From an uncultured Selenomonas sp. (GTDB taxonomy: Bacteria > Bacillota > Negativicutes > Selenomonadales > Selenomonadaceae), in the NCBI GenBank assembly GCA_947167105.1, contig CAMVGU010000005.1:1-64000 (forward strand): a DNA stretch of 64,000 nucleotides, in the 5' to 3' direction. A program made the position numbers and the translations under genes. A model generated the notes under the pieces. It was given only the letters and a program-made list of their open reading frames with translations, ran no database searches and was not told where the DNA came from. Within the stretch, counting starts at the first letter, position 1. Each line of letters starts with the position of its first letter. Below, one piece after another: positions 3,279 through 51,277 of this stretch.

Positions 3279-3310
3279 AAAAACCGCCAGCTGCTTTCGG
3301 CTGACGGTTT
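3279..3310. terminator. bidirectional terminator
   Basis: The stem AAACCGCCAGC pairs with GCTGACGGTTT around a short loop, with one mismatch. It lies between convergent genes, and the minus-strand transcript continues into TTTTTGCTT, a better T-run than the plus strand has. The stop codon of the minus-strand gene touches the hairpin. Confidence 0.6.
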
Positions 3311-3588
3311 CACAGCGTTATGATGTGTTTCATGCAGAGTACCAGGAAGCAGATCACTGCGGTGCCGAAGGAGAAGAACTCTACGCAACGCACCGGGTAG
3401 GCGTAATGGAGGGGAATGTCCAGCACCCTGGGCATGTTGCTGGCGAGCAGCGATATGGATATGGACATGTAAAGCAGTATGGTCGTGATGGCAAGGTGGC
3501 CGATGCCTGCCAGGGCACGAACCAGCAGGATGATGGCAAAGGCTATGAAAAAATAGGCCAGTTTGTCGGCGTGCAGGTGCAGGTTCAT
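3310..3588 (-). CDS. small membrane protein, three predicted membrane segments
   Basis: A 92-residue hydrophobic protein that I cannot assign to a family. Three hydrophobic stretches are visible: residues about 10-28 (AYFFIAFAIILLVRALAG), 30-50 (LAITTILLYMSISISLLAS) and 70-87 (FFSFGTAVICFLVLCM). The ATG is preceded by AAAGGAG at 8 nt, a strong ribosome site, and the gene ends at a terminator, so it is likely real. A role in the membrane is all that can be inferred. Confidence 0.7.
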   Translation of the reverse strand: MNLHLHADKLAYFFIAFAIILLVRALAGIGHLAITTILLYMSISISLLASNMPRVLDIPLHYAYPVRCVEFFSFGTAVICFLVLCMKHIITL

Positions 3589-22833: not shown

Positions 22834-22999
22834 GATTCATGCGCTTAAGTTAATGACATAGAATAAGGCATAGATTTGATATTTGTGGCGGACAGCTAAA
22901 GAGTATGGCGCGGGCGGCAGGATTTCGGACAGAAAATGCCGAATGTAAAACAAAATAAATATCATTTAAGAGAAACAAATGCAGCGGAGGTGCATATCC

Positions 23000-28883: not shown

Positions 28884-28929
28884 AAGGGACTGCCGTCTGA
28901 AGATGAAAGCCTTCAGGCGGCAGTCCCTT
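28884..28929. terminator. strong bidirectional terminator
   Basis: A 19-bp stem AAGGGACTGCCGTCTGAAG paired with CTTCAGGCGGCAGTCCCTT (one G-U pair) around an 8-nt loop, between convergent genes. The minus-strand gene's stop codon lies at its edge. Confidence 0.8.
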
Positions 28930-30610
28930 ACTCTGTCACTACCTTGTTGCGGCCGGTTCCCTTGGCCTGGTACAGGGCGTGGTCCGCCCGTTTTTGGAAG
29001 GCGGCCAGGCTGTCCTCCAGGCCGTGCCAGATGCTGATGCCTATGCTGCAGGTAATCTGTCGTTCGGGCAACAGTACGGCCAGGCAGAGATCGGCCCGTA
29101 TGGCATCGGCGAACTCTGCGGCCTCTGCCAGGGTGAAGCCCCGGCAGGTGACCATGAATTCCTCGCCGCCGTAGCGGATGAAGGTGTGCCGTGCGTCCAG
29201 ATGCCTGCGCACCAGGCCGGCAAAGCCTGTAAGCACCTGATCTCCGGCATCATGGCCGAAGGTATCGTTGATGCTCTTGAAATGATCCAGGTCAAACATC
29301 AGCAGGGCCAGGGGGGCACCTGTGGCGTTGGCAATTTCTGTTTCGTGTATCAGTGCGTCCTGAAGCTGCCCCCGGTTATAGCACTTGGTCAGGGCATCAA
29401 TCTGGGCAGATTCCCTGGCGGCGGCTACGCTGCGTTCCAGTGATGAGTTGATGATCCGCAGCCGCTGCCGCTCATTCAGGGCATGGCGCAGCAGCCAGAG
29501 GACGATAAGGGTCCACAGGCAGATAATCAGCGGCAGAATATGGACCCGTGCCAGGATTTCGGCGATTTGCAGCACCGGCAGCCCTGCGGCCGGCAGGATC
29601 AGGCTGCCGCAGATCTCGGAGCCGCTGCGGGACTCGATGTCCAGGCAAGCAGCTACGGCCAGGAGGGCAAACCAGCTGAAGAACAGATAGAATTCCAGCC
29701 AACTGTCCAGCAGGCGCTTGCCCATAAGCTCACCTACCAGTGCGGCCACCAGCACGCCGCTGCACAGGCAGGTGAGTATCAGCATCATGCGGGCGCGTTT
29801 GGGGGGCAGTGCTTCCTTAGCCGTGAGGATCAGCAGGATAGGCATCAGGTAGAAGGAAATCAGGCAGATTAAGTCACGGGTGGACATTTTGATGATGCCG
29901 GGTTCCTGGAAGGCGGCCACTCCTGTCACCAGCCAGGCGGAGAAGACCAGGAGGAACAGGGACAGGCGCAGGATAAAGCTGCGCTGCCTGGGCAGCAGTT
30001 GCCAGCAGGGCAGCAGGATCATAAGCAGCAGGGCGGACATGGGCAGCGCCAGCCATTTGAGCATATCATTCCGGAAGAGGCTGCCCACCTGCTGGTTGCT
30101 TTCGCCGATGCTGAGACCTTCTATCAGGCCCAGGCGGCGGGGGTGATCTGTGTAGAGATGAAAGGAGAGCTGCTTGCCCTGGTAATTGCGCGGCAGTTCC
30201 ACAAGATGCCATCTCAGGCCGTAGATATTCTGCTCCGAGCCGAAGGCACCGTAGCTGTAGATCAACTGGGCATTCATATAGACCCGGACAGCCTGTTCCA
30301 CAGTGGCAAAGGCAAGGGTAGGATGGTGGTAGGTGCTGTCTGTCGGCAAAATGGTGGTCAGCCAGAGGGTTGTCCTGCCTTCCGGTATGGGCAGGGAATA
30401 GGGGCGGGGGGCAGGAAGCCACTCCGGGTCATCGTAGGGCTTGACCGGGGTGATGAAAACGGGGCCGGCAATGGGGCGGCCGCTAACCTGCGGCAGTATG
30501 TACTTCCAGCCGCCGGACAGCGGCTCGGCGGCGCAGCAGGCCATGGGGCAGAGAAGCCCCTGCAAAAGCAGCAGGAGCAGGCAGAAAGCTGCCGCAAGAT
30601 TCCTTAGCAA
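28928..30610 (-). CDS. membrane diguanylate cyclase, 7TMR-DISM-like
   Basis: A 560-residue sensor. It has a signal peptide, an extracytoplasmic domain (about 28-190; a jelly-roll-like DISM extracellular region containing RTTLWLTTILP and LRWHLVELPRNYQGK), seven hydrophobic segments (about 195-375), a short coiled coil, and a GGDEF domain with active-site RYGGEEFMV (about 505) and LALLMFDLDHFKSINDTFGHDAGD. The residues at the usual I-site are DARH rather than RxxD, so product inhibition may be absent. The start is TTG at 30610 with AAAGGAGG 8 nt upstream. The gene lies 48 nt after the solute-binding protein gene, which may give it its ligand. Confidence 0.9.
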   Translation of the reverse strand: MLRNLAAAFCLLLLLLQGLLCPMACCAAEPLSGGWKYILPQVSGRPIAGPVFITPVKPYDDPEWLPAPRPYSLPIPEGRTTLWLTTILPTDSTYHHPTLAFATVEQAVRVYMNAQLIYSYGAFGSEQNIYGLRWHLVELPRNYQGKQLSFHLYTDHPRRLGLIEGLSIGESNQQVGSLFRNDMLKWLALPMSALLLMILLPCWQLLPRQRSFILRLSLFLLVFSAWLVTGVAAFQEPGIIKMSTRDLICLISFYLMPILLILTAKEALPPKRARMMLILTCLCSGVLVAALVGELMGKRLLDSWLEFYLFFSWFALLAVAACLDIESRSGSEICGSLILPAAGLPVLQIAEILARVHILPLIICLWTLIVLWLLRHALNERQRLRIINSSLERSVAAARESAQIDALTKCYNRGQLQDALIHETEIANATGAPLALLMFDLDHFKSINDTFGHDAGDQVLTGFAGLVRRHLDARHTFIRYGGEEFMVTCRGFTLAEAAEFADAIRADLCLAVLLPERQITCSIGISIWHGLEDSLAAFQKRADHALYQAKGTGRNKVVTE

Positions 30611-36770: not shown

Positions 36771-36833
36771 GTCAGCCACTTCATTATAGCAGGGGTAAAC
36801 TGCCTTGTCAAATGGGGGAGGGAGGCGGAAAGT

Positions 36834-36883
36834 CAAGTATACTTGCACGTATACTTGACCCTGCCTGCTCTTTATGCTATGCT
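36834..36883 (+). promoter_or_regulatory. vapBC promoter and tandem operator palindromes
   Basis: A perfect 12-bp palindrome CAAGTATACTTG (36834-36845) is followed at once by a near copy CACGTATACTTG (36846-36857). -35 TTGACC (36855-36860) overlaps the second copy; -10 TATGCT (36878-36883) has a 17-bp spacer. This is the expected layout for autoregulation by an antitoxin-toxin complex. Confidence 0.7.
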
Positions 36884-36904
36884 GAAATCAAGGGGGGATG
36901 CCTT

Positions 36905-37138
36905 ATGCCACAGATTTCGTTGTACGTAAACCAGAATGATTATGACAAGATTGTGGAGGCCGCAAGATTTTCAGGTAAATCCATTTCCAACTGGGTGGCA
37001 GAGGCTGTCAGGCCGAAATTCCGCCAGGGTTACAGCCAGGAATTCCTGGATTTGTTCGGCTCTGTGCAGGATGAATCATTCCGGCGGCCGGAGCAGCCTG
37101 ATGCCTCTCTGAATGCTCCGCGGGAGGAAATGCTGTGA
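36905..37138 (+). CDS. antitoxin, ribbon-helix-helix-like, partner of PIN toxin
   Basis: A 77-residue protein beginning PQISLYVNQNDYDKIVEAAR, a beta strand and helix typical of ribbon-helix-helix antitoxins (ISLYV strand, then FSGKSISNWVAEAVR). The C-terminal half (SVQDESFRRPEQPD) would contact the toxin. AAGGGGGG lies 8 nt before the ATG at 36905. Its stop overlaps the toxin start (GTGA). Confidence 0.82.
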   Translation: MPQISLYVNQNDYDKIVEAARFSGKSISNWVAEAVRPKFRQGYSQEFLDLFGSVQDESFRRPEQPDASLNAPREEML

Positions 37139-37536
37139 GCTACTATTTGGATACCAACATGTGCATCTATTACCTGAATGGACGCTATGACGCTGTCAGG
37201 CAGCATTTGCTGGCACATACGCCGGAAGAGATCAGGATACCCGCGATTGTCAAGGCCGAACTTTTGGCAGGGGCATATAAGAGCAGTCGGCGCCGGGTAA
37301 CGGAGCAAAAGCTGCTGTCATTTCTGTCCTTTTTTGTTCTGGAGCCTTTTGGCGATCGGATGACCTATGCTTATGCAGAGTTACGTTCGCAACTGGAGAA
37401 AAGCGGAACGCCCATAGGGCCTGATGATATGCTGATAGCTGCGACCGTGCTGGCTGAGGATGGAATCCTGGTGACGCATAATGTGCGTGAATTTCAGCGC
37501 GTGAAAGGGCTGAGACTGGAAGACTGGACAGCGTGA
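37135..37536 (+). CDS. vapC: VapC-type PIN-domain toxin ribonuclease
   Basis: A 133-residue PIN nuclease. The acidic metal-binding residues are present: Asp in YYLDTNMCIYYL, Glu in KAELLAGAYK, and Asp in PIGPDDMLIAATVL, then VTHNVREFQRVKGLRLEDW at the end, the classic VapC close. VapC toxins cleave tRNA or rRNA. The start is GTG at 37135, overlapping the antitoxin stop by 4 bp. The pair lies between tRNA-Ser and murI. Confidence 0.92.
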   Translation: MSYYLDTNMCIYYLNGRYDAVRQHLLAHTPEEIRIPAIVKAELLAGAYKSSRRRVTEQKLLSFLSFFVLEPFGDRMTYAYAELRSQLEKSGTPIGPDDMLIAATVLAEDGILVTHNVREFQRVKGLRLEDWTA

Positions 37537-38433: not shown

Positions 38434-38462
38434 ATTGACAACAAACTGTTACGTCATTACAA
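38434..38462 (+). promoter_or_regulatory. strong promoter of the envelope/exopolysaccharide locus
   Basis: TTGACA at 38434-38439 and TACAAT at 38457-38462 with a 17-bp spacer. The first gene starts at about 38643, leaving a leader of about 170 nt. Confidence 0.75.
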
Positions 38463-38478
38463 TGGCCTTAGATTTTTA

Positions 38479-38587
38479 CCCGTGGGCAGTGGATTTTCTT
38501 GCAAACAATCGCCCGCGGCATACCGCTGATTATTCGTTACGCCCTCCATCGAAGCTGTGCAGGCATAAAAGAGCTCGATGGGGGGCG
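38479..38587 (+). ncRNA. structured 5' leader, candidate cis-regulatory RNA
   Basis: Two stems lie in tandem: CCGTGGGC (38479-38486) with GCCCGCGG (38510-38517), one G-U pair, and CGCCCTCCATCGA (38540-38552) with TCGATGGGGGGCG (38575-38587), 13 bp with one G-U pair and a 22-nt loop. No T-run follows, so the second is not a plain terminator. It does not match the c-di-GMP (GEMM) riboswitch consensus I know. Function is unknown. Confidence 0.5.
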
Positions 38588-38642
38588 GTGTGCGTTTGCG
38601 GTCATGATGAATGGCATGATGGCAGAAAGGATTGTAGGCAAA

Positions 38643-40346
38643 GTGTCAAAAAAACAGCGGCTTCTCGGTGCCCTTTTTCTGGGGATGCAGTTGCCCGGCG
38701 GTCTGGCTATGGCTGCAGAGACAGAGGCGCAGCCCTGGGTGTATGACTCCTTAAGAGAGCTTCAGGCAGCGGGATATCTTGAGCTGCCCGAGGCTCCCTT
38801 GGGCAGTTTTTCTCGTGCAGAATTGGCCGGCATGGTGTCCAAGGCCCTGGCGAATATGGAGGAGAAGCGAACCGGGAAACTTGCGGATGAGTATGCGCTG
38901 TTGACCCGTCTGGAGGTCATGGACGAAGTGCAGCTTCAACTGGCCAGGGAGCAGGAGCATTATGCCGATAAACATCTGGCAGCGGCCCGGGCCAGGGCCA
39001 GGCATGCGGCGGAAATGCTGGCCCGTCGTTCAGTGGAGGGACAGAACCGGCTGGAAGTCATGGGGCCTTTGAAGCAGCAGAGTGATGAGGCACAGGAAAA
39101 GCTGGGCTTCGCTGCCAGGGACTATGCTGAAGCCAAGAGCCGGGTAGCGGAGCTGGAAGGGCTTTTGCGGCAGGTGCAGGCAAGGCAGCGGCAGTTGCTG
39201 GCGGTGATGAGCGGCGGAACTGTGGATGGCGAAACCGAAAAAACCGCAGCAACGGGCGGGATAGTTTCTGCCCCCGGAAGCATGGCCCATTCATTAGCGG
39301 CAGTGCCGGGGACTGCACAGGCCGGAGGGCGGGATGCCGGGGAAGCTTCTGCCCTGGCAGCGGCGGGCAGGCTCAGGGCGGAATTTGCCGGAGAGTTGGA
39401 AACAAAAGGCAGCCTGGACGAGGGGAATGCCACCAGGCAGCTATCCTCCAATCTGCCCCTCAGATATGTGCCGGATCAGCGCTTCAAGCTGGATACGGAG
39501 ATGAGGCTTGATTCCGGGCACTCCAGCGGCGAGCATGGGAACGGAAACCGCACCCGGGCCCGCGTCCGCCTGTTCCCCGACTACGATATTGACGGCAACT
39601 GGCACATCAAGGGCATGGCGGAATGGGAAAAGACCCTGTCCGGCAGTAAATCCTCCAATGACGGCGAGTTCAGGCTGGACCGCTATTATCTCAGCGGCGA
39701 TATAGGCACGGTACACTCTGATCTGGGCGTTTTCAGCAGCCTGATGGCAGAGGGCAATATCTACGACAGCAAGTTCAGGGGCGCCAGGTTCTCTGTAGGC
39801 AGGCCAGTGCGCTATACCTTTGAGGCAGGCCAGGTGGGCCGGGACGAGGTGAAGAACTCCTTTGACCTGACGGCATCCTATAAGGGTGCAGATTACGGAC
39901 TGGAGGGGGGCATTTACCGTTTCGGCTTCGACGATGGCTCCTGGCAGAATATCCTCATGGCCAATTACCGCCATAATCTCGGAGTGCTGGATGCCGGTGC
40001 CATGGTGCTGTACGGCAAGGAGAGAAACCGGGGCGGCAAGGCAGGATTTGTGCTGACTTTGGGCTACAGTCCCGCCGATAGCTGGAAGCCATATACCTGG
40101 AATGGCTGGCTGAAGTATTATTACCAGCCTGCCTCCACCTATCTTTACCATACCATGAACGGCAGGGCCGATGCGATGAAAGCCCACGGAGGCTTCAAGG
40201 GCTTTGGGCTGGGGGCTTATTACAACCTGCCCCATGATTGGAGCCTGGGCATCGAATACTATGCTTTGAGGGATTTGGACTACGGCCATGCCTCCAATAC
40301 CATCTGGGGAGTATTGACCAAGAGATTCAAGAATTACAGGGAATAA
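38643..40346 (+). CDS. outer-membrane porin-like beta-barrel with SLH-like N-terminus
   Basis: A protein of about 567 residues. The signal peptide (SKKQRLLGALFLGMQLPGGLAMA) is followed by an SLH-like segment (VYDSLRELQAAGYLE then SFSRAELAGMVSKAL), as in Negativicute porins that tether the outer membrane to peptidoglycan. Residues about 95-190 are coiled coil, followed by a Gly/Ala-rich linker. From about residue 250 alternating strands rich in Tyr, Gly and charged residues suggest a beta-barrel (FKLDTEMRLDSG, GFVLTLGYSPADSW, LGIEYYALRDLDYG). GTG at 38643 gives the best signal peptide; in-frame ATGs at 38604-38619 and a TTG at 38499 fall in or near the leader hairpins. It may export the polysaccharide made by the genes that follow. 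Confidence 0.75.
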   Translation: MSKKQRLLGALFLGMQLPGGLAMAAETEAQPWVYDSLRELQAAGYLELPEAPLGSFSRAELAGMVSKALANMEEKRTGKLADEYALLTRLEVMDEVQLQLAREQEHYADKHLAAARARARHAAEMLARRSVEGQNRLEVMGPLKQQSDEAQEKLGFAARDYAEAKSRVAELEGLLRQVQARQRQLLAVMSGGTVDGETEKTAATGGIVSAPGSMAHSLAAVPGTAQAGGRDAGEASALAAAGRLRAEFAGELETKGSLDEGNATRQLSSNLPLRYVPDQRFKLDTEMRLDSGHSSGEHGNGNRTRARVRLFPDYDIDGNWHIKGMAEWEKTLSGSKSSNDGEFRLDRYYLSGDIGTVHSDLGVFSSLMAEGNIYDSKFRGARFSVGRPVRYTFEAGQVGRDEVKNSFDLTASYKGADYGLEGGIYRFGFDDGSWQNILMANYRHNLGVLDAGAMVLYGKERNRGGKAGFVLTLGYSPADSWKPYTWNGWLKYYYQPASTYLYHTMNGRADAMKAHGGFKGFGLGAYYNLPHDWSLGIEYYALRDLDYGHASNTIWGVLTKRFKNYRE

Positions 40347-40375
40347 GGAATTGTCGAAAGGAATATTTGCGCACC

Positions 40376-41686
40376 ATGGATATGTTAAAAAAGCTGAGCC
40401 GCAAGGAGACTAAACTGGCAGTAGTGGGGCTAGGCTATGTAGGGCTGCCCCTGGCGGCAGCTTTTGCCGAAAAATATCAGGTTATCGGCTTTGACATGAA
40501 TGAGAGAAAAATTGCCGCTTATAGGGAAGGCCGGGATGTGACGGCGGAAATCGGGGATGAAGCCCTGCAGAAGTCCGGCATCGAGCTGACCAGCGATCCG
40601 GAGCGGCTTAGGGAAGCTTCCTTTATCGTCATTGCCGTGCCCACTCCCATCAACGGGGACAAGACGCCGGATCTTGGCCCGGTGACAGGTGCCTCGGAAA
40701 CGGTGGGCAAGTACCTGGCAAGGGGGAGCATAGTGGTCTACGAGTCCACGGTTTATCCCGGCGTGACTGAGGATGTCTGCCTGCCCCTTCTGGAGCGGGA
40801 GTCAGGGCTATCTTGCGGCCCTGATTTCAAGGTGGGCTATTCCCCGGAGCGCATCAATCCCGGCGATCGTGAGCACAGATTGAAAAGCATAACCAAGATT
40901 GTCTCCGGCATTGACGAGGAAGCCCTCAGTGATATCAGCGCGGTTTACGGCTCTATTATAGAGCGTATTTATCCCGCTTCTGCCATCAAGGTGGCCGAGG
41001 CGGCCAAGCTGGTGGAAAATACCCAGCGGGATATCAACATTGCCTTTATGAATGAGCTTTCCATGGTGTTCCATCAGCTTGGCATTGACACAGAGGAAGT
41101 GGCAAAGGCCATGGATACCAAGTGGAACGCCCTGGGCTTCCGTCCCGGTTTGGTAGGTGGGCATTGCATAGGGGTGGATCCCTACTATTTCATCTACGAA
41201 GCGGAGAACCTTGACCAGCATTCCCAGCTTATTTCTGCAGGCCGCCGCATCAACAGCGATATGAGCAAGTTCGTGGCCCAGGAAATCGTGAAGGTGCTCC
41301 TGAAGGCGGGAGTAAATGCCACCAAGGCTAAAATTTTCCTTTTGGGCATGACCTTCAAGGAAAACTGCCCTGACACGAGAAATTCACGGGCGGTAGATGT
41401 TTACCGCCATCTGGAGGAATTCGGCCTGACGGCTGCGGCCTCAGACCCTCTGGCAGACCCTCGTGATTTCCTGCAGGAATACGGCATAGAGCTGGTGCCG
41501 GAGGCAGAGGTGCAAGGAGCTGACTGCCTGGTGATACTGGCGGCCCACGACTGTTACCGCCGCCGCTCCCTGGAGGAGCTGAAAGGGCTCTACAGGGAAG
41601 GCAGGGCACCGGTGCTGATTGATGTGAGAAATATATACAATCGCAAGGATGCCGAAAGAATGGGCTTTGTGTATTGGAGTCTCTAA
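40376..41686 (+). CDS. UDP-N-acetylhexosamine 6-dehydrogenase (TviB/WbpO type)
   Basis: A 436-residue nucleotide-sugar dehydrogenase that oxidises the C6 hydroxyl of a UDP-N-acetylhexosamine to a uronate. NAD-binding LAVVGLGYVGLPLAAAFAE is at the N-terminus, VAVPTPIN-like IVIAVPTPINGD and VYESTVYPGVTEDV follow, and the catalytic Cys is in VGGHCIGVDPYY (about residue 261). The sequence resembles TviB/WbpO/CapL proteins; whether GlcNAc or GalNAc is the substrate is not certain. The product would be an acidic amino sugar donor for the synthase encoded downstream. ATG at 40376 is preceded by AAAGGAA. Confidence 0.92.
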   Translation: MDMLKKLSRKETKLAVVGLGYVGLPLAAAFAEKYQVIGFDMNERKIAAYREGRDVTAEIGDEALQKSGIELTSDPERLREASFIVIAVPTPINGDKTPDLGPVTGASETVGKYLARGSIVVYESTVYPGVTEDVCLPLLERESGLSCGPDFKVGYSPERINPGDREHRLKSITKIVSGIDEEALSDISAVYGSIIERIYPASAIKVAEAAKLVENTQRDINIAFMNELSMVFHQLGIDTEEVAKAMDTKWNALGFRPGLVGGHCIGVDPYYFIYEAENLDQHSQLISAGRRINSDMSKFVAQEIVKVLLKAGVNATKAKIFLLGMTFKENCPDTRNSRAVDVYRHLEEFGLTAAASDPLADPRDFLQEYGIELVPEAEVQGADCLVILAAHDCYRRRSLEELKGLYREGRAPVLIDVRNIYNRKDAERMGFVYWSL

Positions 41687-41719
41687 GAGTAGATGCAGGA
41701 CAGGAGGATTTGAGGAGCC

Positions 41720-42670
41720 GTGGACTACAGGAAGCTCGCTTTGGCAGTTGCCTTGGCGCTCATCTGCGTAGTGGGCGCACTGATATATGTGCGGGACAAT
41801 TTGATTGAGAAGACGGAGTTCATACCGGATATCACAGACCTTACCAAGAATTACCTGGCCGAGGAGGAAATCAAGGCCGCCCTGGAAAGGCGGGGAGAGG
41901 CAGATATACAGCCTGCGGAGGTCATCACCACCCTGCAGGACGGCGCTCCGAGATTAGCCCTGGTTTTTGACGGCATGCCCGACAGGCCCCTGGCGGCCAA
42001 ACTGCTGGATGTGCTGGCCAGGCACAAGACTCCTGCGGTATTTTTCCTGGAGGGGGAGAATGTGGTAGACGAGCCGGAGGTCATAAAGCTCATCCGTCAG
42101 GCAGGCCAGGAAGTGGGCAACTACACCTATGTGGGGCTGGCTGCCCTGGAAAAGCGACCCCCTGGGGAGCAGATCAGGGAAATCTGCCGGGGACAGAAGG
42201 CCGTGACCATGAATGACTCTCTGACACCCACCCTTTTTCGCGCTCCTCGCACGGTGTACACGGATGAGCTGCTCAAATCCGTCAGGGCCGCAGGGCTGGA
42301 GTACGCCGTCAAGGAAAATGTGCGCTTCCAGCCCGGCAGCCTGCACAGCCAGGAGGAGGCGGATGCCTTTGCGGCTGCGGTGGCAAATGGCAGCATCATC
42401 GCCATCCCCGTGGAGCCTCCCGTGGAGCAGAAGGCCGATGATCCGGCAGTGCATGAGGAAAAGCCTGCCGTGGATATGAAGCCCACCATTCAGGACGGGA
42501 CACCTAATCCCCCCATTGCCAAAGTGGAGTTGGACAAGGAACTGGATCTGCTGCTGACAGCGATGGAGAAGCAGGGCAAGGAATTCATCTATGTGAACCA
42601 GTTCAGGAAGATTCACTATATCCCTGCCGGTTTGCCCTTGCCGGAAAGCACGGAAGGAGGCCAGGAGTAA
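41720..42670 (+). CDS. membrane-anchored polysaccharide-deacetylase-like protein, catalytically degenerate
   Basis: A 316-residue protein with one N-terminal membrane helix (LALAVALALICVVGALIYV) and a divergent NodB/CE4 fold. Motif 1 is LALVFDGMP instead of TFDDGP, losing one Asp, and the HxxxH metal motif is replaced by GNYTYVGLA, so metal-dependent deacetylation is unlikely. FRAPRTVYTDELLKSV keeps the later RxP-type motif. It may bind polysaccharide or act as a scaffold beside the synthase. The start is GTG at 41720 with AGGAGG upstream. Its stop overlaps the start of the glycosyltransferase (TAATG). Confidence 0.8.
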   Translation: MDYRKLALAVALALICVVGALIYVRDNLIEKTEFIPDITDLTKNYLAEEEIKAALERRGEADIQPAEVITTLQDGAPRLALVFDGMPDRPLAAKLLDVLARHKTPAVFFLEGENVVDEPEVIKLIRQAGQEVGNYTYVGLAALEKRPPGEQIREICRGQKAVTMNDSLTPTLFRAPRTVYTDELLKSVRAAGLEYAVKENVRFQPGSLHSQEEADAFAAAVANGSIIAIPVEPPVEQKADDPAVHEEKPAVDMKPTIQDGTPNPPIAKVELDKELDLLLTAMEKQGKEFIYVNQFRKIHYIPAGLPLPESTEGGQE

Positions 42671-44499
42671 TGGGAGATAAGAAGGAAAGGCAGGAAGTCC
42701 TCTACGAAGAAAAGCCTGACCGCCGCCTGCTCTCCTATACGCCGGATGCCTCCGGGCACCGCAGCAACCATGACCGCCGGGGCGGCTGCGAGGATGAGGA
42801 TGATTACATAGCCTACCAGCGGGAGGACAAGGCAGGCCAGCGCTACCTGGTGGACTACGGGGTGGAAATGTCCTGTAAGGGCGGCAGCCTGCGGGCGGTG
42901 GCCATAGATATCAGCACCACCGGCATGCTGCTGAAATATGCTGCAGAAAAGCCTGGCCCCCAGGTGGGGGATAAGGTCAGGCTCACCTTTGAAATCACTC
43001 CCGGCTCCATGCCGGAAGGGTATGAGATGAAGGTCAAGAGGCTGAGGGCCAAATGTGTCAGGGTGCTGGAACGAAATGGAGAGCACCTCTGCGCAGTGGA
43101 ATTTACCGATACTTTGGCCCAGTATGCCACAGCCAAGCGCCAGAATTACATGCTGGCTGCCTCGGCTTTCTTCCTGGGCGTCATTGTGCTGGCCATTGTC
43201 ATGATGCGGGCGGAGTCCGTGGTGTACTTCCGCTTCAATCGCTGGCTGTACCTCTACAGCATCATTGCGGCCACCTTCCTCCTGTCCCGTTATTTCTTCG
43301 CCACCTTCTACAGGCCGGTGAAGATTGACCCGGACTATACACCGGGGGTGACACTCATCATCCCCTGCTTCAATGAGGAACACTGGATAGACCGCACCAT
43401 CAAGAGCTGCATCAATCAGGACTATCCCGCCGACAAGCTGGAAATCATTGTGGTGGATGACCATTCCAATGATAAATCCGTGGAGCGCATCAGGGAGACC
43501 ATCGAGGAACTGAAGGCGGCAGACACCCGGGAGGGGGGCTACCGGGTGGAGGGGCGCATCCGCTACATAGTGCAGCCCTACAACCAGGGAAAGCGGGAGG
43601 CCATGGCCCTGGGGGCCAGGGAGGCGCAGCATGAGCTGCTGATCTTCGTGGACTCGGACAGCTTCCTTGACCCCTTTGCGGTGCGCAACATCGTCCAGCC
43701 CTTCAAGGACAAGGACATGGGCGGTGTGTCGGGGCGCACGGATGTGGCCAATACCTACACCAACGCCCTGACCCGCATGCAGTCCGTGCGCTACTACATC
43801 GCCTTCCGCATCATGAAGGCGGCGGAAAGCTACTTCGATTCTGTGACCTGTCTTTCAGGCCCCCTGTCCTGCTATCGGCGGGACTTGGTGCTGCGCTACG
43901 CCGATGCCTGGCTGAACCAGAAGTTTTTGGGCCAGCGGGCTACCTTCGGCGATGACCGCAGCATGACCAATTTCATTCTCAGGCACAACCGCACCTGTTA
44001 TCAGGACAGCGCCGTGTGCATGACCATCGTGCCCAGCAGCTACGTCATGTTCTTAAAGCAGCAGATGCGCTGGAAGCGTTCCTGGCTGAGGGAGTCCCTG
44101 ATCGCTGCCCGCTATATCTGGAAAAAAGAACCCTTTATGTCCCTGAGTTTCTACATGGGACTGGTGGTGCCCATTGCGGCACCTGTCATCGTCCTCTATA
44201 ACCTTATCTATGTGCCCATCATGCACCGGGTTTTCCCCGTGACCTTTGTGGTAGGCATGCTGCTCATGGCCCTGCTTATGAGCATGGCCCAGATGTTCCT
44301 GCGGCGCAGCACCACCTGGATTTTCGGCATGTGGTTCTGCCTGTACTACGAAGCGGTGCTCCTGTGGCAGATGCCCGTGGCCTGGGTGACTTTCTGGAAA
44401 TCCACCTGGGGCACCAGGCTGACCCCTGCAGACCTGGCAGAAATGGAAAAGGAACGGCAGAAGCAGGAAAGGAAGGAAAAGAAACGGCATGAATCCTAG
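42670..44499 (+). CDS. PilZ-fused processive glycosyltransferase (GT2 synthase)
   Basis: A 609-residue membrane enzyme. Residues about 50-155 form a PilZ-like domain: RYLVDYGVEM then AIDISTTGMLL, with the DxSxxG c-di-GMP motif; HDRRGG upstream may give the arginines. Two membrane helices follow (about 158-210), then the GT2 domain with VVDDHSND (about 260), FVDSDSF (about 326), FGDDRSM (about 427) and the processivity motif QQMRW (463-467), then more membrane helices. This is the layout of cellulose, hyaluronan and alginate type synthases. It should polymerise and translocate a polysaccharide in response to c-di-GMP. It overlaps its neighbours on both sides. Confidence 0.9.
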   Translation: MGDKKERQEVLYEEKPDRRLLSYTPDASGHRSNHDRRGGCEDEDDYIAYQREDKAGQRYLVDYGVEMSCKGGSLRAVAIDISTTGMLLKYAAEKPGPQVGDKVRLTFEITPGSMPEGYEMKVKRLRAKCVRVLERNGEHLCAVEFTDTLAQYATAKRQNYMLAASAFFLGVIVLAIVMMRAESVVYFRFNRWLYLYSIIAATFLLSRYFFATFYRPVKIDPDYTPGVTLIIPCFNEEHWIDRTIKSCINQDYPADKLEIIVVDDHSNDKSVERIRETIEELKAADTREGGYRVEGRIRYIVQPYNQGKREAMALGAREAQHELLIFVDSDSFLDPFAVRNIVQPFKDKDMGGVSGRTDVANTYTNALTRMQSVRYYIAFRIMKAAESYFDSVTCLSGPLSCYRRDLVLRYADAWLNQKFLGQRATFGDDRSMTNFILRHNRTCYQDSAVCMTIVPSSYVMFLKQQMRWKRSWLRESLIAARYIWKKEPFMSLSFYMGLVVPIAAPVIVLYNLIYVPIMHRVFPVTFVVGMLLMALLMSMAQMFLRRSTTWIFGMWFCLYYEAVLLWQMPVAWVTFWKSTWGTRLTPADLAEMEKERQKQERKEKKRHES

Positions 44500-46402
44500 G
44501 GAAGATACGGATATCAGGGTGCTGGCCCTGGGGGACGAGAGTTTTTCCCGCCGCAAGAACCGCAGGAAGGGGCTGCGGGTGGTGGCAGAGCTTGCCGTCC
44601 TGGCTGTGCTGGCCTTTGTCCTCTACAGCCTTTTCTTTAGCTTGAAATCCTATGAGCCTTACGACCACAGTGCTGTGACGGCGGGGGGAGAGGACACGGG
44701 CTTTGTGGCCCTCTCCTACTTTGGAGTAGACCACATTGGCGACACCTCCACCCTCATTGGGCAGAAACAGCTGCACAAGCATCTGGGAGAATTGAAACGG
44801 CAGGGCTTTGTCACCATCACCCAGCAGGATATCCTGGATTACTACGGGCAGGGCAAGCCCCTGCCGGAAAAATCCCTGTACCTGATGTTTGAGGACGGCA
44901 GGCGGGATACGGCCATCTTCGCCCAGCCGGTGCTGGAGGACTTAAACTACAAGGCCAGCATCATGGGCTATGCGGAAAATCTGGAAACCATGGATTTGAA
45001 ATTCCTGAAGCCCTCGGAGCTGCAGGAACTTACGGATTCCACCTTCTGGGAGCTGGGCACCAATGGCTACCGCATGGAGTACATCAATGTCTTTGACCGC
45101 TATGACAACTACATAGGGGAAATCGACCCCCTGCGCTTTGCCATGCTGAGCCCCTATCTGGGCCGCCGCTACAATCACTATCTCATGGACTACATCCGGG
45201 ATGAATACGGCGTGCCCAAGGAAAGCTATGGCCATATGAGCCGTCGCATCAGCTACGACTACGAGCGGCTGCGGGATATCTACACCGAGCATTTCGGCAG
45301 GGTACCTGCCGCCTATGTCCACATGCACGGCAACACGGGAAAATTCGCCAACAACAGTGCAGTGAGCGCCATCAATGAAAAGTGGATACGGGAACTTTTC
45401 CCCATGGCCTTCAACCGGGAGGGCTACTGCTTCAACCAGAGAAACAGCAGCCTCTACGACCTTACCCGCATGCAGCCCCAGCCTTACTGGCCCATCAATC
45501 ATCTTCTGATGAGGATAAAATACGATATCAACACCCCCATAGAGTTCTATGACGGCGGGGATGAGCGCCTGGCCCGCTGGAACCTGTTGGAAGGTGCCCA
45601 GGAGCTGGAAAAGGAAACCTACACCCTCACCACCCTGCCGGAGCAGGAAGCTCTGGCAGAGGTGCGGGACAGCAACGGGCTCCAGGATGTAAAGCTTACC
45701 GTGAACCTTTTGGGCAATGCCTTCGGTGCCCAGCAGATCTACCTCAGAAGCGATGCCAGGAGGGAAAACTACCTCTGCGTGGAATTGGTCAATAACGAGC
45801 TGCTGGTGTTGGAAAAGACAGGTGGCGATCGCCGCGAGCTCTACCGGGAAAAGATTCCCGTGATTCTGGGGGAGAAAATCCCTTCCGTGGAGGAAGACCG
45901 GCGGGAAGTGGAGGCCGGGGAAAACATGGCCTTTGCCCGCTATGCCACTTCCAAGGAGCAGGCAGAGGAATACTATGGCAGGGCCAAGAGCCGCGAGGCC
46001 ATGCCTGCCGCCTCCGTGGAGGAGGGCGCAGAACCCTACTACCACGTCCAAAGCTTTCACCGCCGTGGCAGCCACGCCCTGAAAATTGATTTGAAGGGTG
46101 ACAAGCTGACGGTGTGGCTGGACGGCAAGGAAGGCCCCTGGGAAATCACAGTGGGAGACACAAGCCGGGGCAGCATTTACTTGGGGGCATCCTGGCAGGG
46201 AGAGGCCTGGAGCCAGAGAAATCTGGCGGACGATGTCTACGATGCAGTCTTTGAAAAGCTCAAAGTTACCAGCAATACAGGCAAGGAAGATGATGAGGAA
46301 AAAGTCCTTTTTACCACGGAACTGTCCGGCAGGGATAAGCTGCTTTTCAATTTGCAGGAAGCATGGGAGAAGGTACTGTTCTGGTTCCTGAGAAACGCCT
46401 AG
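44489..46402 (+). CDS. membrane-anchored polysaccharide deacetylase-like protein with C-terminal LamG-like region
   Basis: A 637-residue protein. It has a short cytoplasmic tail, one membrane helix (about 32-53), then a deacetylase-like domain: HLGELKRQGFVTITQQDIL and LPEKSLYLMFEDGRRD. This resembles the opening of PgaB/IcaB-type enzymes (FDDG there, FEDG here). VPAAYVHMHGNTGKFANNS may carry later motifs. Residues about 420-610 look like a carbohydrate-binding LamG/concanavalin-like domain (FHRRGSHALKIDLKGDKLTV). It could modify or bind the nascent polymer. It overlaps the synthase gene by 11 bp. Its stop codon lies in the terminal repeat of the MITE that follows. Confidence 0.75.
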   Translation: MNPREDTDIRVLALGDESFSRRKNRRKGLRVVAELAVLAVLAFVLYSLFFSLKSYEPYDHSAVTAGGEDTGFVALSYFGVDHIGDTSTLIGQKQLHKHLGELKRQGFVTITQQDILDYYGQGKPLPEKSLYLMFEDGRRDTAIFAQPVLEDLNYKASIMGYAENLETMDLKFLKPSELQELTDSTFWELGTNGYRMEYINVFDRYDNYIGEIDPLRFAMLSPYLGRRYNHYLMDYIRDEYGVPKESYGHMSRRISYDYERLRDIYTEHFGRVPAAYVHMHGNTGKFANNSAVSAINEKWIRELFPMAFNREGYCFNQRNSSLYDLTRMQPQPYWPINHLLMRIKYDINTPIEFYDGGDERLARWNLLEGAQELEKETYTLTTLPEQEALAEVRDSNGLQDVKLTVNLLGNAFGAQQIYLRSDARRENYLCVELVNNELLVLEKTGGDRRELYREKIPVILGEKIPSVEEDRREVEAGENMAFARYATSKEQAEEYYGRAKSREAMPAASVEEGAEPYYHVQSFHRRGSHALKIDLKGDKLTVWLDGKEGPWEITVGDTSRGSIYLGASWQGEAWSQRNLADDVYDAVFEKLKVTSNTGKEDDEEKVLFTTELSGRDKLLFNLQEAWEKVLFWFLRNA

Positions 46403-46564
46403 GGCGTGTTGATTAAATGAGCTTAGTCCAGATTTGTGGGGATTGGCTGTCCATGCAAGGCGACAAACCGCAGGCATAGTGGTGCTATGCTGAGGATTTG
46501 TCAACGCAGCAGGGGCAGTCAAGACCCATGAAGATGGGCTGAGTGAATTAATCAACACGCCCTA
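46400..46564. mobile_element. 165-bp MITE with 17-bp perfect terminal inverted repeats
   Basis: TAGGGCGTGTTGATTAA (46400-46416) is exactly inverted at 46548-46564. The outer TA on each side fits a TA target-site duplication, typical of IS630/Tc1-mariner-derived MITEs. The interior carries no gene. The element ends only a few bases before the ribosome site of the next gene, and it supplies the stop codon of the preceding gene. Confidence 0.8.
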
Positions 46565-46587
46565 AGGGGAAAAGGAGGTTCTATGAA

Positions 46588-47631
46588 GTGAATAAATATC
46601 TTGGTACCCTGGCCCTGGGGCTGTCCATGACTTTTCTGTCCGGCTGCGCCGGGGCGGAGGAAATAAGCCTGGCTCCCGGCCCCCATCCCCCGGTATCATT
46701 ATCTGCCTGGGCAGCATCCTGGGATGCGGACAGGGGGCAGGAGGAGTACCGTCAGATGAAGCGCAAGCTGCAGTCCCTTTCCTGCTTCATGGCCTATTAT
46801 GACAAGGACGACAAGCTCTTTGTGCCCGAGGAAACCAGGGCCCTTGCCGCTTTTGCCAAACAGGAGGACCAGAAGCGCCGCTTCCTTTCCATTACCAATG
46901 ACCGTCAGGATGAAAAGGGGAAATTTACGCCCAAGGATAAGGAACTCCTGCAGCGGCTTCTGGGGGGCGATGCGGACAGGGAAGCTGCCGCAGCAGAAAT
47001 GATAGCTGCGGCCCGCGAACTTGGCTGCACAGGGCTGGAACTTGACTATGAGGCTTTTTTCAAGGATAAGGAGCTTCTGCAGCACTACCTTTCCTTTACC
47101 TACAAGCTGGCCGCTGCCTGCCTGAAGGAAAATCTGGAACTGCGCATTGTGCTGGAGCCTGGGATGCCCATGGATGCGGGCCTGTGCAAAGGCCCCGAGT
47201 ATGTGGTGATGTTCTACAATCTCTACGGCACCCACAGCGGCCCCGGCCCCAAGGCCGACGGAGCCTTTATAGCAAAGACACTGAAGAAAATGGAAGCCAT
47301 TCCCGGCAGCAAGGCGGCAGCCTTTGCCACCGGGGGCTGCCTTTGGGAAGATTACGGCCTGCTGGGGCTGAAAAAAGGCAAGGCCCGGAACCTGGATGAA
47401 GCAGAGGCCGCAAGGCTGGCAGCAGACCACGGCATTACCCCGGAGCGGGACGCAACGAGCTATGCCCTGCACTTTTCTTATGAGGAGGGCGGCCACGACT
47501 ACGAAGTTTGGTATGCCGACAGCGAGACCCTCAGTGCCTGGATTGGCGCCGCAGCCAGGGGAGGCATCGAGCATATCAGCCTCTGGCGGCTGGGGGGCAA
47601 TGTGGATGTTAAGGATATTAAACTGAAATGA
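46588..47631 (+). CDS. GH18-like lipoprotein glycosidase
   Basis: A 347-residue lipoprotein (lipobox FLSGC, Cys20) with a GH18-like barrel. The active-site strand reads GCTGLELDYEAF: the catalytic Glu and the Asp two residues before it are kept, while the first Asp of the usual DGxDxDxE motif is changed. ISLWRLGGNVD near the C-terminus is typical of YaaH-like GH18 proteins. It may trim or bind the amino-sugar polymer made by this locus. The start is GTG at 46588 with AAGGAGG 9 nt upstream; an overlapping ATGAAGTGA forms a two-codon ORF just before it. It overlaps the next gene by 4 bp. Confidence 0.8.
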   Translation: MNKYLGTLALGLSMTFLSGCAGAEEISLAPGPHPPVSLSAWAASWDADRGQEEYRQMKRKLQSLSCFMAYYDKDDKLFVPEETRALAAFAKQEDQKRRFLSITNDRQDEKGKFTPKDKELLQRLLGGDADREAAAAEMIAAARELGCTGLELDYEAFFKDKELLQHYLSFTYKLAAACLKENLELRIVLEPGMPMDAGLCKGPEYVVMFYNLYGTHSGPGPKADGAFIAKTLKKMEAIPGSKAAAFATGGCLWEDYGLLGLKKGKARNLDEAEAARLAADHGITPERDATSYALHFSYEEGGHDYEVWYADSETLSAWIGAAARGGIEHISLWRLGGNVDVKDIKLK

Positions 47632-49340
47632 GGACATTTAGCATGAACACAGCATCCCTGCTACGGGGAGCACTGGCTTTTTGCCTGGCTTCATCCCTTC
47701 TGGCATCCCCTGCCCTGGCGGCGGACTACGGCGCCCTGCGGCAGGCCAATGGGGGAGCCCTGGCTGAGCAGCACCGCTTTCTGCCCACCACGGAGAAAGC
47801 GGTGATTCTGACCTTCGGGGGGCTTTCCAAGGCAGCGCCCCTGCAAAATATACTGTCTTATATGCAGCAGGAGAAACTCAGGGGCACCTTCTTTGTGACA
47901 GAACGGGAAATTGCCAGGAACGGCGGCAATATCGCTCTCATCAAAAGCTATGGGCAGGAGCTGGCCCTGGGGCTGACGCCTTTGAAAGAGGGCAGGTTCG
48001 AGGATTACTGTGCCCAGTTGGAGCGGCTTTCCCAGGCCCTTACGGAAAAGTACGGCGGCCACAGCAATTTCGTCCGCATCATGAGCGGCGGCGGGGAACT
48101 GGCTGTCATGCAGGAAGCCGTGTCCGCCCTGGGCTATACCCTGATTGGACAGGGGCTGAACGTGGTGCAGAGCAAGCACAAGGAAGCCCAATGCCCCGCG
48201 GAAGTCATGCCCCAGATTTTCGGCAAGTGGACAACTTCCCTGAATGCCGGGGAGATAGTGTATATGCGCACGGATTTCTATGTGAGCGACCAGTTGGCGG
48301 CGGAAATGCTGAAGGAAATCAAGGAGCAGAAAATCGACAATATAGGCTATGAAGAATCAGGCTCCTACAAGTATAATGACTCTTTCTATCACACCGCCTC
48401 CCTGGGTGATGTGGCGGCAGACCTTGAGGCAGCCTACGAGCAGGTTTTGCTGGATGAGCTGCCGGAAGAAATGCAGCCTGAGTACGGCAGGGACTGGGTG
48501 ACGGAGGAAAATTTCCGCGAGGCCTTCTTCTCCCGCTATATCGGTGCCCCGGAGGTTTCCCCCGATGACCGCATGCTGGGCTTTTCCCGCAAGGAAATGG
48601 CGGAGGCGGACAAGACGGGGCTGGTGAAGAATGCCCCGGAGAAAACCATCTTCCTCACCTTTGACGACTGGGGGCAGGATGAATCCATCAACAAGCTGCT
48701 CTATGTGCTGAAAAAGCATGGGGTAAGCGGCACCTTCTTCGTCATCACCCGCAATATGCCCAATAACCCCAACCTCCTGCGGGCTATAGCGGAAAGCGGC
48801 AATGAAATCGGCAGCCATACCAATAACCATGTGCCCATGACCAGGCAGGACGAACATGGCAAACAGGTGCCGGTGGAAACGGAGGAGGAATACCGGGAGG
48901 ATGTGCGAAGCTCCTACGCCAAGCTTCTGGCCGTGGTGGGGGATATGCGCCTTCCCAGTGGCCGCCCCGCCCTCACCCGTCTTATACGCCCGCCTACGCT
49001 GGCCGTCAGCCGCACAGGCTGCAAGACCATCCTCAATGCGGGCTTCACTTACATTGTCAACGGCTCCGGCAGCACAGAGGACTATGGGGCTGTTTCCATG
49101 CAGTCCCTGGTGGGCATTATGAACCGCATTGCCCACGATGAAAAGGGCAGGGTGCGCCGTGGGGCTATCCTCATCATGCACATGAGCTCCACCGCCAAGC
49201 TCACTCCCAAGGCCCTGGACATCCTTCTTACAGCCAATGATAACTTGCCGGAGGGACACCCTGGCAAATTCAAGGTGGGCTTGCTGGGGGATTATCTCAC
49301 TGAGGGCTACGACCAGCGGATGAAGCTGGCACAGCCCTAA
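47628..49340 (+). CDS. secreted tandem polysaccharide deacetylase (one degenerate, one active-looking NodB domain)
   Basis: A 570-residue exported protein with a signal peptide (LLRGALAFCLASSLLASPALA). The first NodB-like domain (about 50-290) is degenerate: VILTFGGLSK in place of TFDDGP and no HxxxH. The second (about 335-550) has the active pattern: TIFLTFDDWGQDE (catalytic Asp pair) and EIGSHTNNHVPM (the HxxxH metal ligands), with GTFFVITR between. It should N-deacetylate an amino-sugar polymer in the periplasm. Last gene of the putative exopolysaccharide operon. An alternative ATG is at 47643. Confidence 0.88.
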   Translation: MRTFSMNTASLLRGALAFCLASSLLASPALAADYGALRQANGGALAEQHRFLPTTEKAVILTFGGLSKAAPLQNILSYMQQEKLRGTFFVTEREIARNGGNIALIKSYGQELALGLTPLKEGRFEDYCAQLERLSQALTEKYGGHSNFVRIMSGGGELAVMQEAVSALGYTLIGQGLNVVQSKHKEAQCPAEVMPQIFGKWTTSLNAGEIVYMRTDFYVSDQLAAEMLKEIKEQKIDNIGYEESGSYKYNDSFYHTASLGDVAADLEAAYEQVLLDELPEEMQPEYGRDWVTEENFREAFFSRYIGAPEVSPDDRMLGFSRKEMAEADKTGLVKNAPEKTIFLTFDDWGQDESINKLLYVLKKHGVSGTFFVITRNMPNNPNLLRAIAESGNEIGSHTNNHVPMTRQDEHGKQVPVETEEEYREDVRSSYAKLLAVVGDMRLPSGRPALTRLIRPPTLAVSRTGCKTILNAGFTYIVNGSGSTEDYGAVSMQSLVGIMNRIAHDEKGRVRRGAILIMHMSSTAKLTPKALDILLTANDNLPEGHPGKFKVGLLGDYLTEGYDQRMKLAQP

Positions 49341-49535: not shown

Positions 49536-50207
49536 ATGTTTTCGATACTGATAGCGGAGGATGACAAGAATCTTAACCGCATGATATGTGCAAAGCTGAA
49601 ACAGGAACAGTACAATGTCTTTCCTGCCTTTGACGGGCAGGAGGCCCTGGATGTGCTGGAACGGGAGCATATAGACCTTATCATCAGTGATGTGATGATG
49701 CCCCGCATGGACGGGCTGGAGCTAACTGCCGCCCTGCGGGGGGCGAAAATGGATTTGCCCATCCTCATCATCACTGCCAAGGGACAGATGGAGGATATGG
49801 AAAGGGGCCTCCGGGCGGGTACGGATGATTATATGGTAAAGCCCATCCAGCTCAGGGAGCTTGTGCTGCGGGTGGGGGCACTTCTGCGTCGGGCACAGCT
49901 TATGAGCGAGAAACGGCTGACTATCCGCGGCACGGTTCTGGATTACGGCTCGCTGACGGTGCAGACGGGAGAGCAGGCAGATACCCTGCCCCCCAAGGAG
50001 TTTTATCTGCTGTTCAAGCTGCTCAACCAGCCGGGCAAGATTTTTACCAGGCAGGAACTTCTGGATGAAATCTGGGGTGTGGACAAGGACACGGACAGCC
50101 GCAATGTTGATGCCCATATCAAGAAGCTGCGGCACCGTTTTGCCGACAATCCCGATTTTGCCATTGAAACCGTGCGCGGCCTGGGGTATAAGGCGGTATT
50201 CAAGTGA
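49536..50207 (+). CDS. OmpR/PhoB-family response regulator
   Basis: A 223-residue regulator. The receiver domain has the acidic pair in LIAEDDKNL, the phospho-acceptor Asp in LIISDVMMPRMDG (about 54), Thr in LIITAKG and Lys in DDYMVKPI. The C-terminal winged helix (LPPKEFYLLFKLLNQPGK, then VDAHIKKLRHRF and VRGLGYKAVF) is OmpR-like. Its stop overlaps the histidine kinase start. A tandem GTCA element upstream suggests autoregulation. Confidence 0.95.
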   Translation: MFSILIAEDDKNLNRMICAKLKQEQYNVFPAFDGQEALDVLEREHIDLIISDVMMPRMDGLELTAALRGAKMDLPILIITAKGQMEDMERGLRAGTDDYMVKPIQLRELVLRVGALLRRAQLMSEKRLTIRGTVLDYGSLTVQTGEQADTLPPKEFYLLFKLLNQPGKIFTRQELLDEIWGVDKDTDSRNVDAHIKKLRHRFADNPDFAIETVRGLGYKAVFK

Positions 50208-51277
50208 AAAAACAATTCATTCTGCCCCTGCGGCTCTATCACAGTCTGACTACACTGTTGACCCTGGCTTTTTGCTGTGGTGTGTCCAGCCTGCTGGTCT
50301 ACTTATTGGACAGTATTGCAGGGCTGGCGCTGGAGCTGCCTGCAGCCCTGATTATTTGCAGCCTGCTCACAGTGGTTTCAGGGGCGCTGCTCCTGGCCTG
50401 GGAGGCGGGATACTACATCCGTCCGGCCCAGGCGGTGGCGGAGGCCACAAAGCGCGTGGCCAAGGGGGATTTCGGGGTGCGTGTGCCGCGGCCCGAAACC
50501 TATATTGGCACCGAGGAAAGCTATGTGCTGATTGAAAATTTTAACCGCATGGCCAAGGAGCTGCAAAGCATAGACCATATGCAGAAGGGCTTTACAGGCA
50601 GCGTATCCCATGAGTTCAAGACGCCCCTGTCTTCCATTGTGGGCTTTTCGGAAATCCTGCTGGAAGATGGGCTCAGTGAAGGGGAACGCAGGGAGTATAC
50701 CGGGCTGGTGCATGAGGAGGCCCTGCGGCTCTCCCGGCTGGCGGAAAATCTTCTGCGGCTGTCTCGGCTGGATGCCCAGGCCATCGTCATGCGTCACGAG
50801 GAGATTGCCGTGGACGAGCAGATACGGCAGTGCGTGATCCTCTTAGCCGAGCGCTGGGAGGCCAAGGGCATTGCCTTTGCCATGGATTTGCCCTCTATGC
50901 AGATTGAAGGCGACCCGGATCTGACCAAGCAGGTCTGGCTGAATCTGATTGACAATGCGGTGAAGTACTCGGGGGAGGACAGCAGTATCCATATTTCCGG
51001 GAGATTAGCCCCCCATTCCATCTGCGTGCGCATCCGTGACGAGGGCATTGGCATTCCCGAGGAAAAGCAGGCCCATATCTTTGAGAGGTTTTATCAATGT
51101 GATGAATCCCATCGGGAAAAGGGGCACGGTCTGGGACTGTCCATTGTCAAGCGCATTATGGAGTTGCTGGGGGGCCAGATTGAGTGCCAGAGCCAGCCGG
51201 GCAAGGGCACGGAAATGGTCGTGGCCCTGCCCCTGGACAGTGACAAGACCTGCTTGTTGCAGATACCTGATCGGTAG
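50204..51277 (+). CDS. sensor histidine kinase
   Basis: A 357-residue kinase. Two membrane helices (about 15-35 and 45-68) enclose almost no periplasmic region, then comes a HAMP-like segment (RPAQAVAEATKRVAKGDFGVRV). The H box SVSHEFKTPLSSIVGFSE (His about 132), N box NLIDNAVKYSG, G1 IRDEGIGIPEEK and G2 GHGLGLSIVKRIM are intact. The lack of a sensor domain suggests sensing in the membrane or cytoplasm. The start is GTG at 50204, overlapping the response regulator. Confidence 0.95.
   Translation: MKKQFILPLRLYHSLTTLLTLAFCCGVSSLLVYLLDSIAGLALELPAALIICSLLTVVSGALLLAWEAGYYIRPAQAVAEATKRVAKGDFGVRVPRPETYIGTEESYVLIENFNRMAKELQSIDHMQKGFTGSVSHEFKTPLSSIVGFSEILLEDGLSEGERREYTGLVHEEALRLSRLAENLLRLSRLDAQAIVMRHEEIAVDEQIRQCVILLAERWEAKGIAFAMDLPSMQIEGDPDLTKQVWLNLIDNAVKYSGEDSSIHISGRLAPHSICVRIRDEGIGIPEEKQAHIFERFYQCDESHREKGHGLGLSIVKRIMELLGGQIECQSQPGKGTEMVVALPLDSDKTCLLQIPDR

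Follow-up and report, generated by a model that had tools for sequence, protein, structure and literature searches.

A probable c-di-GMP-controlled exopolysaccharide operon with a PilZ-fused synthase in an uncultured Selenomonas and other Firmicutes

The window analyzed here comprises 64,000 nucleotides (positions 1 to 64,000 of contig CAMVGU010000005.1, assembly GCA_947167105.1) of an uncultured Selenomonas sp., whose genome of 3.1 Mb in 66 contigs has rumen Selenomonas as its closest named relatives. Seven tightly packed open reading frames (ORFs), spanning positions 38643-49340 on the + strand, encode a polysaccharide synthase fused to a PilZ domain, together with proteins for sugar-nucleotide oxidation, deacetylation, hydrolysis and putative export. 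They are interpreted as an uncharacterised, synthase-dependent exopolysaccharide operon controlled by cyclic di-guanosine monophosphate (c-di-GMP) and unlike the Pga, Bcs, Alg, Pel and Pss systems, a reading given a probability of about three in four. The evidence consists of gene content, its conservation, a barrel gene specific to diderm hosts, riboswitches in relatives and predicted folds. The following features were assigned, where CE4, GT2 and GH18 denote carbohydrate-active enzyme families.

38435..38463, + strand: sigma-70-type promoter, TTGACA-17-TACAAT (11/12 consensus matches, best of 7 sites in the region)
38541..38588, + strand: leader RNA hairpin (z-score -3.8; stem kept in loci L029-L031)
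38643..40346, + strand: putative polymer exporter, an OmpM-type outer-membrane beta-barrel of 16 strands with SLH-like segment and coiled coil (AlphaFold model, profile match to the genome's own OmpM)
40376..41686, + strand: TviB-like UDP-N-acetylhexosamine 6-dehydrogenase (NCBIfam TviB)
41720..42670, + strand: gene 3, membrane-anchored CE4 domain, predicted to be catalytically degenerate (Pfam PF01522, motifs)
42670..44499, + strand: gene 4, N-terminal PilZ fused to a membrane GT2 polysaccharide synthase (PF07238, PF00535)
44489..46402, + strand: gene 5, membrane-anchored PgaB-like protein of CE4 fold with divergent active site and possible LamG-like tail (NCBIfam PgaB, PDB PgaB)
46588..47631, + strand: gene 6, GH18-like lipoprotein, probable glycosidase (weak PF00704, SleL match, LSGC lipobox)
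47628..49340, + strand: gene 7, secreted tandem CE4 protein (PF01522 twice, motifs)

All seven ORFs, their strand and their overlaps (TAATG at 42668-42672, 11 bp at 44489-44499 and ATGA at 47628-47631) were confirmed as described in an earlier sequence-only reading of this DNA, and Pfam agreed with its calls of a UDP-sugar dehydrogenase, the PilZ-GT2 fusion and the CE4 domains of genes 3 and 7. The locus start proposed there, 38434, coincides with the promoter, which lies shortly 3' of the end of murI (38393) and whose TTGACA element is also present in the leaders of L029-L031. The barrel gene itself is better started at GTG 38643, with the ribosome-binding site AGAAAGGA and conserved in relatives, and the dehydrogenase gene at ATG 40376.

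Of 60 genomes of relatives, about 20 encode a full-length PilZ-GT2 protein; a species-representative collection contributed 80 loci, where 77 of the proteins are near full length. Hosts include Selenomonadaceae, Sporomusaceae, Acidaminococcaceae and Veillonellaceae on the Negativicute side, and furthermore Clostridium, Lachnospiraceae, Eubacteriaceae, Paenibacillus, Brevibacillus, Cohnella and others. About 80 loci share the gene set and its order, far more than chance would give, so that the synteny check suggested by the sequence-only reading bore out the conserved co-occurrence. Across the phylum the distribution is patchy and the system rare, with the fusion protein occurring in 6 of 299 sampled genomes. 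Neighbours were counted at loci with enough flanking sequence; diderm or monoderm status was assigned from record titles, and four loci with doubtful labels were counted apart. On this basis the deacetylase accompanies the synthase at 37/37 diderm and 39/39 monoderm loci, the PgaB-like gene at 36/36 and 38/38, the GH18-like gene at 34/34 and 33/37 (71/75 overall) and the dehydrogenase gene at 34/35 and 19/31, respectively. The barrel gene is present at all 36 diderm (Negativicute) loci and at none of 27 monoderm loci, and thus tracks the outer membrane exactly. The system is not restricted to diderm Firmicutes, since monoderm Clostridia and Bacilli possess the cluster without the barrel. In the synthase tree most Negativicutes cluster together with high support, nested inside clostridial sequences. 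No description of the cluster was found in the open-access literature searched (subscription papers lay outside the search), and the exopolysaccharide operon, real and widespread, has apparently not been described before.

Within the synthase, Pfam located PilZ (PF07238, 9.5e-9) at residues 57-148, in the N-terminal part, in addition to GT2 (PF00535). The motifs GDDR, QxxRW and WGTR were read from the sequence in an alignment of 77 near-full-length homologues. NodC was the best NCBIfam model (169 bits, 1.7e-49), and hyaluronan synthases (HAS) were the best solved relatives by sequence, with Xenopus HAS1 at 6e-40. Scores for PgaC/IcaA (1e-30; 107 bits, cut-off 422 bits) and CelA (40 bits, cut-off 699) were lower. 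Moreover, the AlphaFold model (pLDDT 80) matched XlHAS1 in Foldseek at 5.1e-23, and in VIA-align several HAS entries, and likewise an archaeal mannosyltransferase, reached Z values of about 30 (root-mean-square deviation 2.3 over 376 residues for HAS), with cellulose synthase lower at Z 20-23. The GT2 domain thus carries the HAS fold and motifs and, as judged by sequence and predicted fold, is nearest to hyaluronan synthase and NodC. These results support a synthase-dependent exopolysaccharide locus as originally proposed, with a synthase that is not of the PNAG (poly-N-acetylglucosamine) or cellulose type.

For c-di-GMP control the evidence is strong but circumstantial. The PilZ domain was matched by Pfam in 19/19 members; an alignment of 52 members shows S82, G85 and R58 without variation and D80 kept in more than 90%, so that the D-x-S-x-x-G motif is present. 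Riboswitches constitute the strongest new evidence for the link and are independent of PilZ. Using Rfam RF01051/RF01786 above gathering score upstream of the operon as criterion, a c-di-GMP-I riboswitch was found to precede the first operon gene in 12 of the 14 Sporomusaceae-type loci that were scanned (L044, L045, L047, L048, L049, L051, L052, L053, L056, L057, L059 and L108). Furthermore, Acetobacterium (L073) carries a c-di-GMP-I riboswitch upstream of the dehydrogenase gene and Clostridium (L085) a c-di-GMP-II riboswitch before the deacetylase gene, the only two adjacent riboswitches among 21 scanned monoderm loci; none was found in the scanned Pectinatus and Acidaminococcaceae-type loci. 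Genomes with c-di-GMP-I riboswitches contain only roughly 1-15 copies each, and chance placement is therefore negligible. In all but L108 the next ORF follows at a distance of 18 to about 200 nt; in L108 an interval of about 800 nt is filled by a repeat array. In this locus, from Sporomusa silvacetica, tandem repeats of about 130 bp occupy positions 1733-2540 between riboswitch and TPR-barrel gene (TPR, tetratricopeptide repeat). A strong hairpin with U-run follows the aptamer in 13 of the 14 riboswitch loci, and its 5' arm starts 10-17 nt inside the aptamer 3' end, the L108 fold behaving likewise. Terminator and aptamer should therefore be mutually exclusive, and c-di-GMP is predicted to switch transcription on.

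The signal itself is available, since the genome of the uncultured Selenomonas contains 20 GGDEF matches, besides three PilZ matches. In 13 loci the operon has GGDEF genes nearby; a rough estimate makes this only a mild excess, and it does not belong to the main evidence. In the window, two GGDEF-type genes were observed: an iron-hydrogenase large-subunit-like protein with 4Fe-4S domains fused to GGDEF (22979-24820), possibly a redox-sensing diguanylate cyclase, and a GGEEF diguanylate cyclase beside a solute-binding protein gene (28928-30610, - strand), about 8 kb upstream of the operon.

Several findings weigh against this reading. Where the sequence-only reading had expected a PilZ domain with the residues for c-di-GMP binding, only D-x-S-x-x-G is kept as predicted: the canonical RxxxR is missing from its usual place before the PilZ barrel, R58 being invariant and residue 54 variable. 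Binding is thus not assured, as the first arginine is not conserved. The nearly invariant N-terminal stretch DRRxLSxVPDxxxxRxxxDRR (residues 17-37) might provide substitute arginines. With a profile of PilZ alone, no sequence relative was recovered in the PDB. Romboutsia RiGT2, a GT2-PilZ protein, keeps both motifs and yet showed no c-di-GMP binding (PMC10374906); PilZ motifs alone therefore do not decide the matter. In addition, Rfam gave no c-di-GMP riboswitch for the window or its lineage, and no riboswitch for the operon leader even at permissive threshold. The leader hairpin at 38541-38588 (CCCTCCATCG..CGATGGGGGG), kept in close Selenomonas relatives and without Rfam family match, might regulate the operon of this lineage in place of a riboswitch. 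The dehydrogenase and the barrel raise two further objections.

The dehydrogenase scores as a UDP-N-acetylhexosamine type (NCBIfam TviB 424 bits vs. 121 for the UDP-glucose dehydrogenase TuaD). An acidic, partly deacetylated amino-uronic polymer is plausible. The dehydrogenase gene is missing at 12 of 31 monoderm loci, however, and the polymer may thus not be acidic in all members. Together with the NodC match (1.7e-49) and the GH18 and CE4 partners, this gap would also agree with a neutral or cationic, chitin- or chitosan-like product, in which the synthase makes beta-1,4-linked GlcNAc, deacetylase and GH18 protein act on it and the dehydrogenase serves another pathway. This possibility deserves consideration but is regarded as doubtful, given that the operon includes a dehydrogenase gene at 34/35 diderm loci and that the remaining genomes often have one at a separate site: among 13 genomes without a local copy, six carry an ortholog of 53-56% identity at another site, five have only a distant one (34-39%) and two have none.

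The barrel matched no Pfam or NCBIfam family, and neither did its homologues, with the exception of TPRs in Sporomusa and a single sub-threshold match. A confident AlphaFold model predicts 16 strands, a long coiled-coil hairpin and an SLH-like N-terminus, with Veillonella OmpM1 as nearest solved structure (Z 27; next Z 21). Moreover, a profile built from the barrels matches the OmpM encoded in this genome collinearly over SLH and barrel parts. The originally described barrel is thus corroborated by model and profile; its SLH-like segment falls below the Pfam SLH threshold, and SLH is absent in Sporomusaceae homologues. OmpM acts as both outer-membrane tether and uptake porin (PMC10628300), and the OmpM-like barrel could, as a further point against the proposed role, be an ordinary porin or tether merely co-transcribed with the operon, the polymer being exported by another route. 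This is considered unlikely: the barrel belongs to the cluster at 36/36 testable diderm loci, and the Sporomusa homologue has an N-terminal TPR region instead, the layout of PgaA/BcsC/NfrA, a similarity that speaks for a role in export and points to convergence. Extra barrel-deacetylase pairs lie directly downstream of the operon in L042 (15553-19803) and L083 (14735-17844); such tandem duplicates suggest that both proteins act together and likewise disfavor a mere porin or tether.

Three deacetylase-fold proteins had been counted in the operon. Sporomusaceae encode a single membrane-anchored deacetylase, about 880 residues long, in which the motifs of the three CE4 domains read TFDG, TFGG and TFDDW plus HSDKH in order. 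Gene 3 aligns to the first domain (residues 19-299 of the 886-aa Pelosinus protein) and gene 7 to the second and third, and the two are therefore one ancestral three-domain protein split in two. Gene 3 reads VFDG and lacks HxxxH; in gene 7 the first domain has degenerate TFGG and the second the intact TFDDW and HTNNH. Judged from these motifs, both together comprise two dead CE4 domains and one intact site.

Gene 5 stands apart. Its deacetylase-like character was recovered weakly by PgaB models (NCBIfam 3e-8, PDB PgaB 1e-4) and not by Pfam, which gave no match and hence no GHL13 (PF14883). The canonical CE4 motifs are absent; FEDGRRD and GTNGYR stand in their positions, with strong conservation among 74 sequences. 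Gene 5 is read as a CE4-like fold with rebuilt site and may serve as binding protein or in another activity. The matches of gene 5 to PgaB and of the GT2 domain to PgaC/IcaA (1e-30) could indicate a divergent Pga/Ica system producing poly-beta-1,6-GlcNAc with a PgaB-like deacetylase. This is judged very improbable, because NodC and hyaluronan synthases outscore PgaC/IcaA and real PgaB has a GHL13 domain and CE4 motifs that are missing from gene 5. In S. ruminantium ATCC 12561 (L039) a bona fide PgaB (CE4 plus GHL13, 1e-78) and GT2 pair was observed at 256-3396 on the - strand, upstream of the operon and in opposite orientation; with such a separate pair adjoining, Pga and the present operon are distinct systems.

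The GH18 call for gene 6 stands with weak support from PF00704, at 4e-4 in the window protein and 1.7e-13 in the Brevibacillus orthologue; the protein also matches the cortex-lytic enzyme SleL (1e-5), and the motif G-x-E-x-D-Y-E is conserved among homologues. GH18 enzymes use the N-acetyl group of their substrate, so gene 6 would fit an N-acetylhexosamine polymer. The SleL match, and matches of the CE4 proteins to PdaA/PdaB/PgdA in NCBIfam, would also be expected if the operon remodeled the cell wall or a wall-linked glycan and secreted no matrix. The processive synthase, the riboswitches in relatives and the diderm-only outer-membrane barrel fit export better, and this explanation is held to be quite unlikely.

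In the proposed reading as a c-di-GMP-controlled exopolysaccharide operon, a sugar polymer for use in biofilms is probably synthesized, trimmed and exported by the cluster. UDP-N-acetylhexosamine would be partly oxidized to its amino-uronic form by the dehydrogenase, and the inner-membrane PilZ-GT2 protein would polymerize and extrude the chain at high c-di-GMP. The CE4 protein(s) anchored in the membrane, with a single active site, may strip some N-acetyl groups, the PgaB-like protein may bind or modify the chain and the GH18-like lipoprotein may cut it. In diderms the OmpM-derived 16-strand barrel would pass the chain through the outer membrane, and in Sporomusaceae c-di-GMP would also turn on transcription via the riboswitch. 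More tentatively, and short of being likely, the operon may represent a new class of c-di-GMP-controlled exopolysaccharide machine across monoderm and diderm Firmicutes, producing a hyaluronan-like amino-uronic polymer by a HAS-type synthase with N-terminal PilZ switch, with a riboswitch as second control in many members and diderm export through a barrel recruited from the OmpM tether family that converges in Sporomusa on the PgaA/BcsC TPR-pore layout.

If the interpretation holds, a major c-di-GMP-controlled biofilm polymer would be added to the Firmicutes, where few are known, with carriers among cultured rumen, oral, acetogenic and soil species. Operons with and without barrel offer a natural experiment on polymer export upon gain or loss of the outer membrane. 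Furthermore, thanks to the pairing of riboswitch and PilZ, the c-di-GMP link can be put to a direct test in Pelosinus, Sporomusa and Acetobacterium.

Among neighbouring genes, a response regulator and kinase 3' of the operon (49536-51277) were rejected as members since related loci do not share their position. A small gene followed by a PIN-domain gene at 36812-37536 probably forms a VapBC-type toxin-antitoxin pair.

In comparison with known systems, PNAG Pga, Bcs, Alg, Pel and Listeria Pss each have defining features that the operon lacks, in line with the earlier view that it matches no named system. With Pga/Ica it shares a GT2 synthase, a CE4-fold protein, a glycosidase-type activity and, in diderms only, an outer-membrane pore; it differs by PilZ on the synthase, the dehydrogenase in the operon, a synthase nearer HAS/NodC that is not orthologous to PgaC/IcaA, a gene 5 product without the CE4-GHL13 (PF14883) combination of PgaB and, in the window, an OmpM-type barrel without TPRs. 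Bcs likewise combines c-di-GMP with a PilZ domain on the synthase, but PilZ is C-terminal in BcsA and N-terminal here, the GT2 branch is another and none of the seven genes matches BcsB. In alginate synthesis Alg8 and Alg44 are separate proteins, whereas PilZ is fused to the synthase here and the modeled barrel has 16 strands. Pel employs PelF (GT4) and the receptor PelD; in the seven-gene operon Pfam and NCBIfam recognized only the GT2, no other glycosyltransferase and no GGDEF gene. Listeria PssA-E (PMC4125290) is also a c-di-GMP-controlled GT2 exopolysaccharide system of a Firmicute, yet the suggested parallel proved poor: its receptor PssE is a degenerate GGDEF protein, PssD is BcsB-like and PilZ is lacking, and no PssD-like or PssE-like gene occurs among the seven. 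E. coli NfrBA (PMC8669469) resembles the operon in a GT2 fused to a c-di-GMP domain and, as in the Sporomusa homologues, a TPR-plus-pore partner, but has MshEN instead of PilZ, a proposed UDP-ManNAc substrate and no deacetylase. Negativicute OmpM (PMC10628300) shares SLH-like segment, coiled coil and 16-strand barrel; the present barrel has a much diverged SLH and a long coiled coil and resides in an exopolysaccharide operon. Class I hyaluronan synthase (HasA) and NodC share the GT2 fold and the motifs GDDR, QxxRW and WGTR, and has operons also place a UDP-sugar dehydrogenase beside the synthase; the present operon is set apart from them by its N-terminal PilZ, a dehydrogenase of UDP-N-acetylhexosamine type, CE4 and GH18 partners and an outer-membrane barrel.

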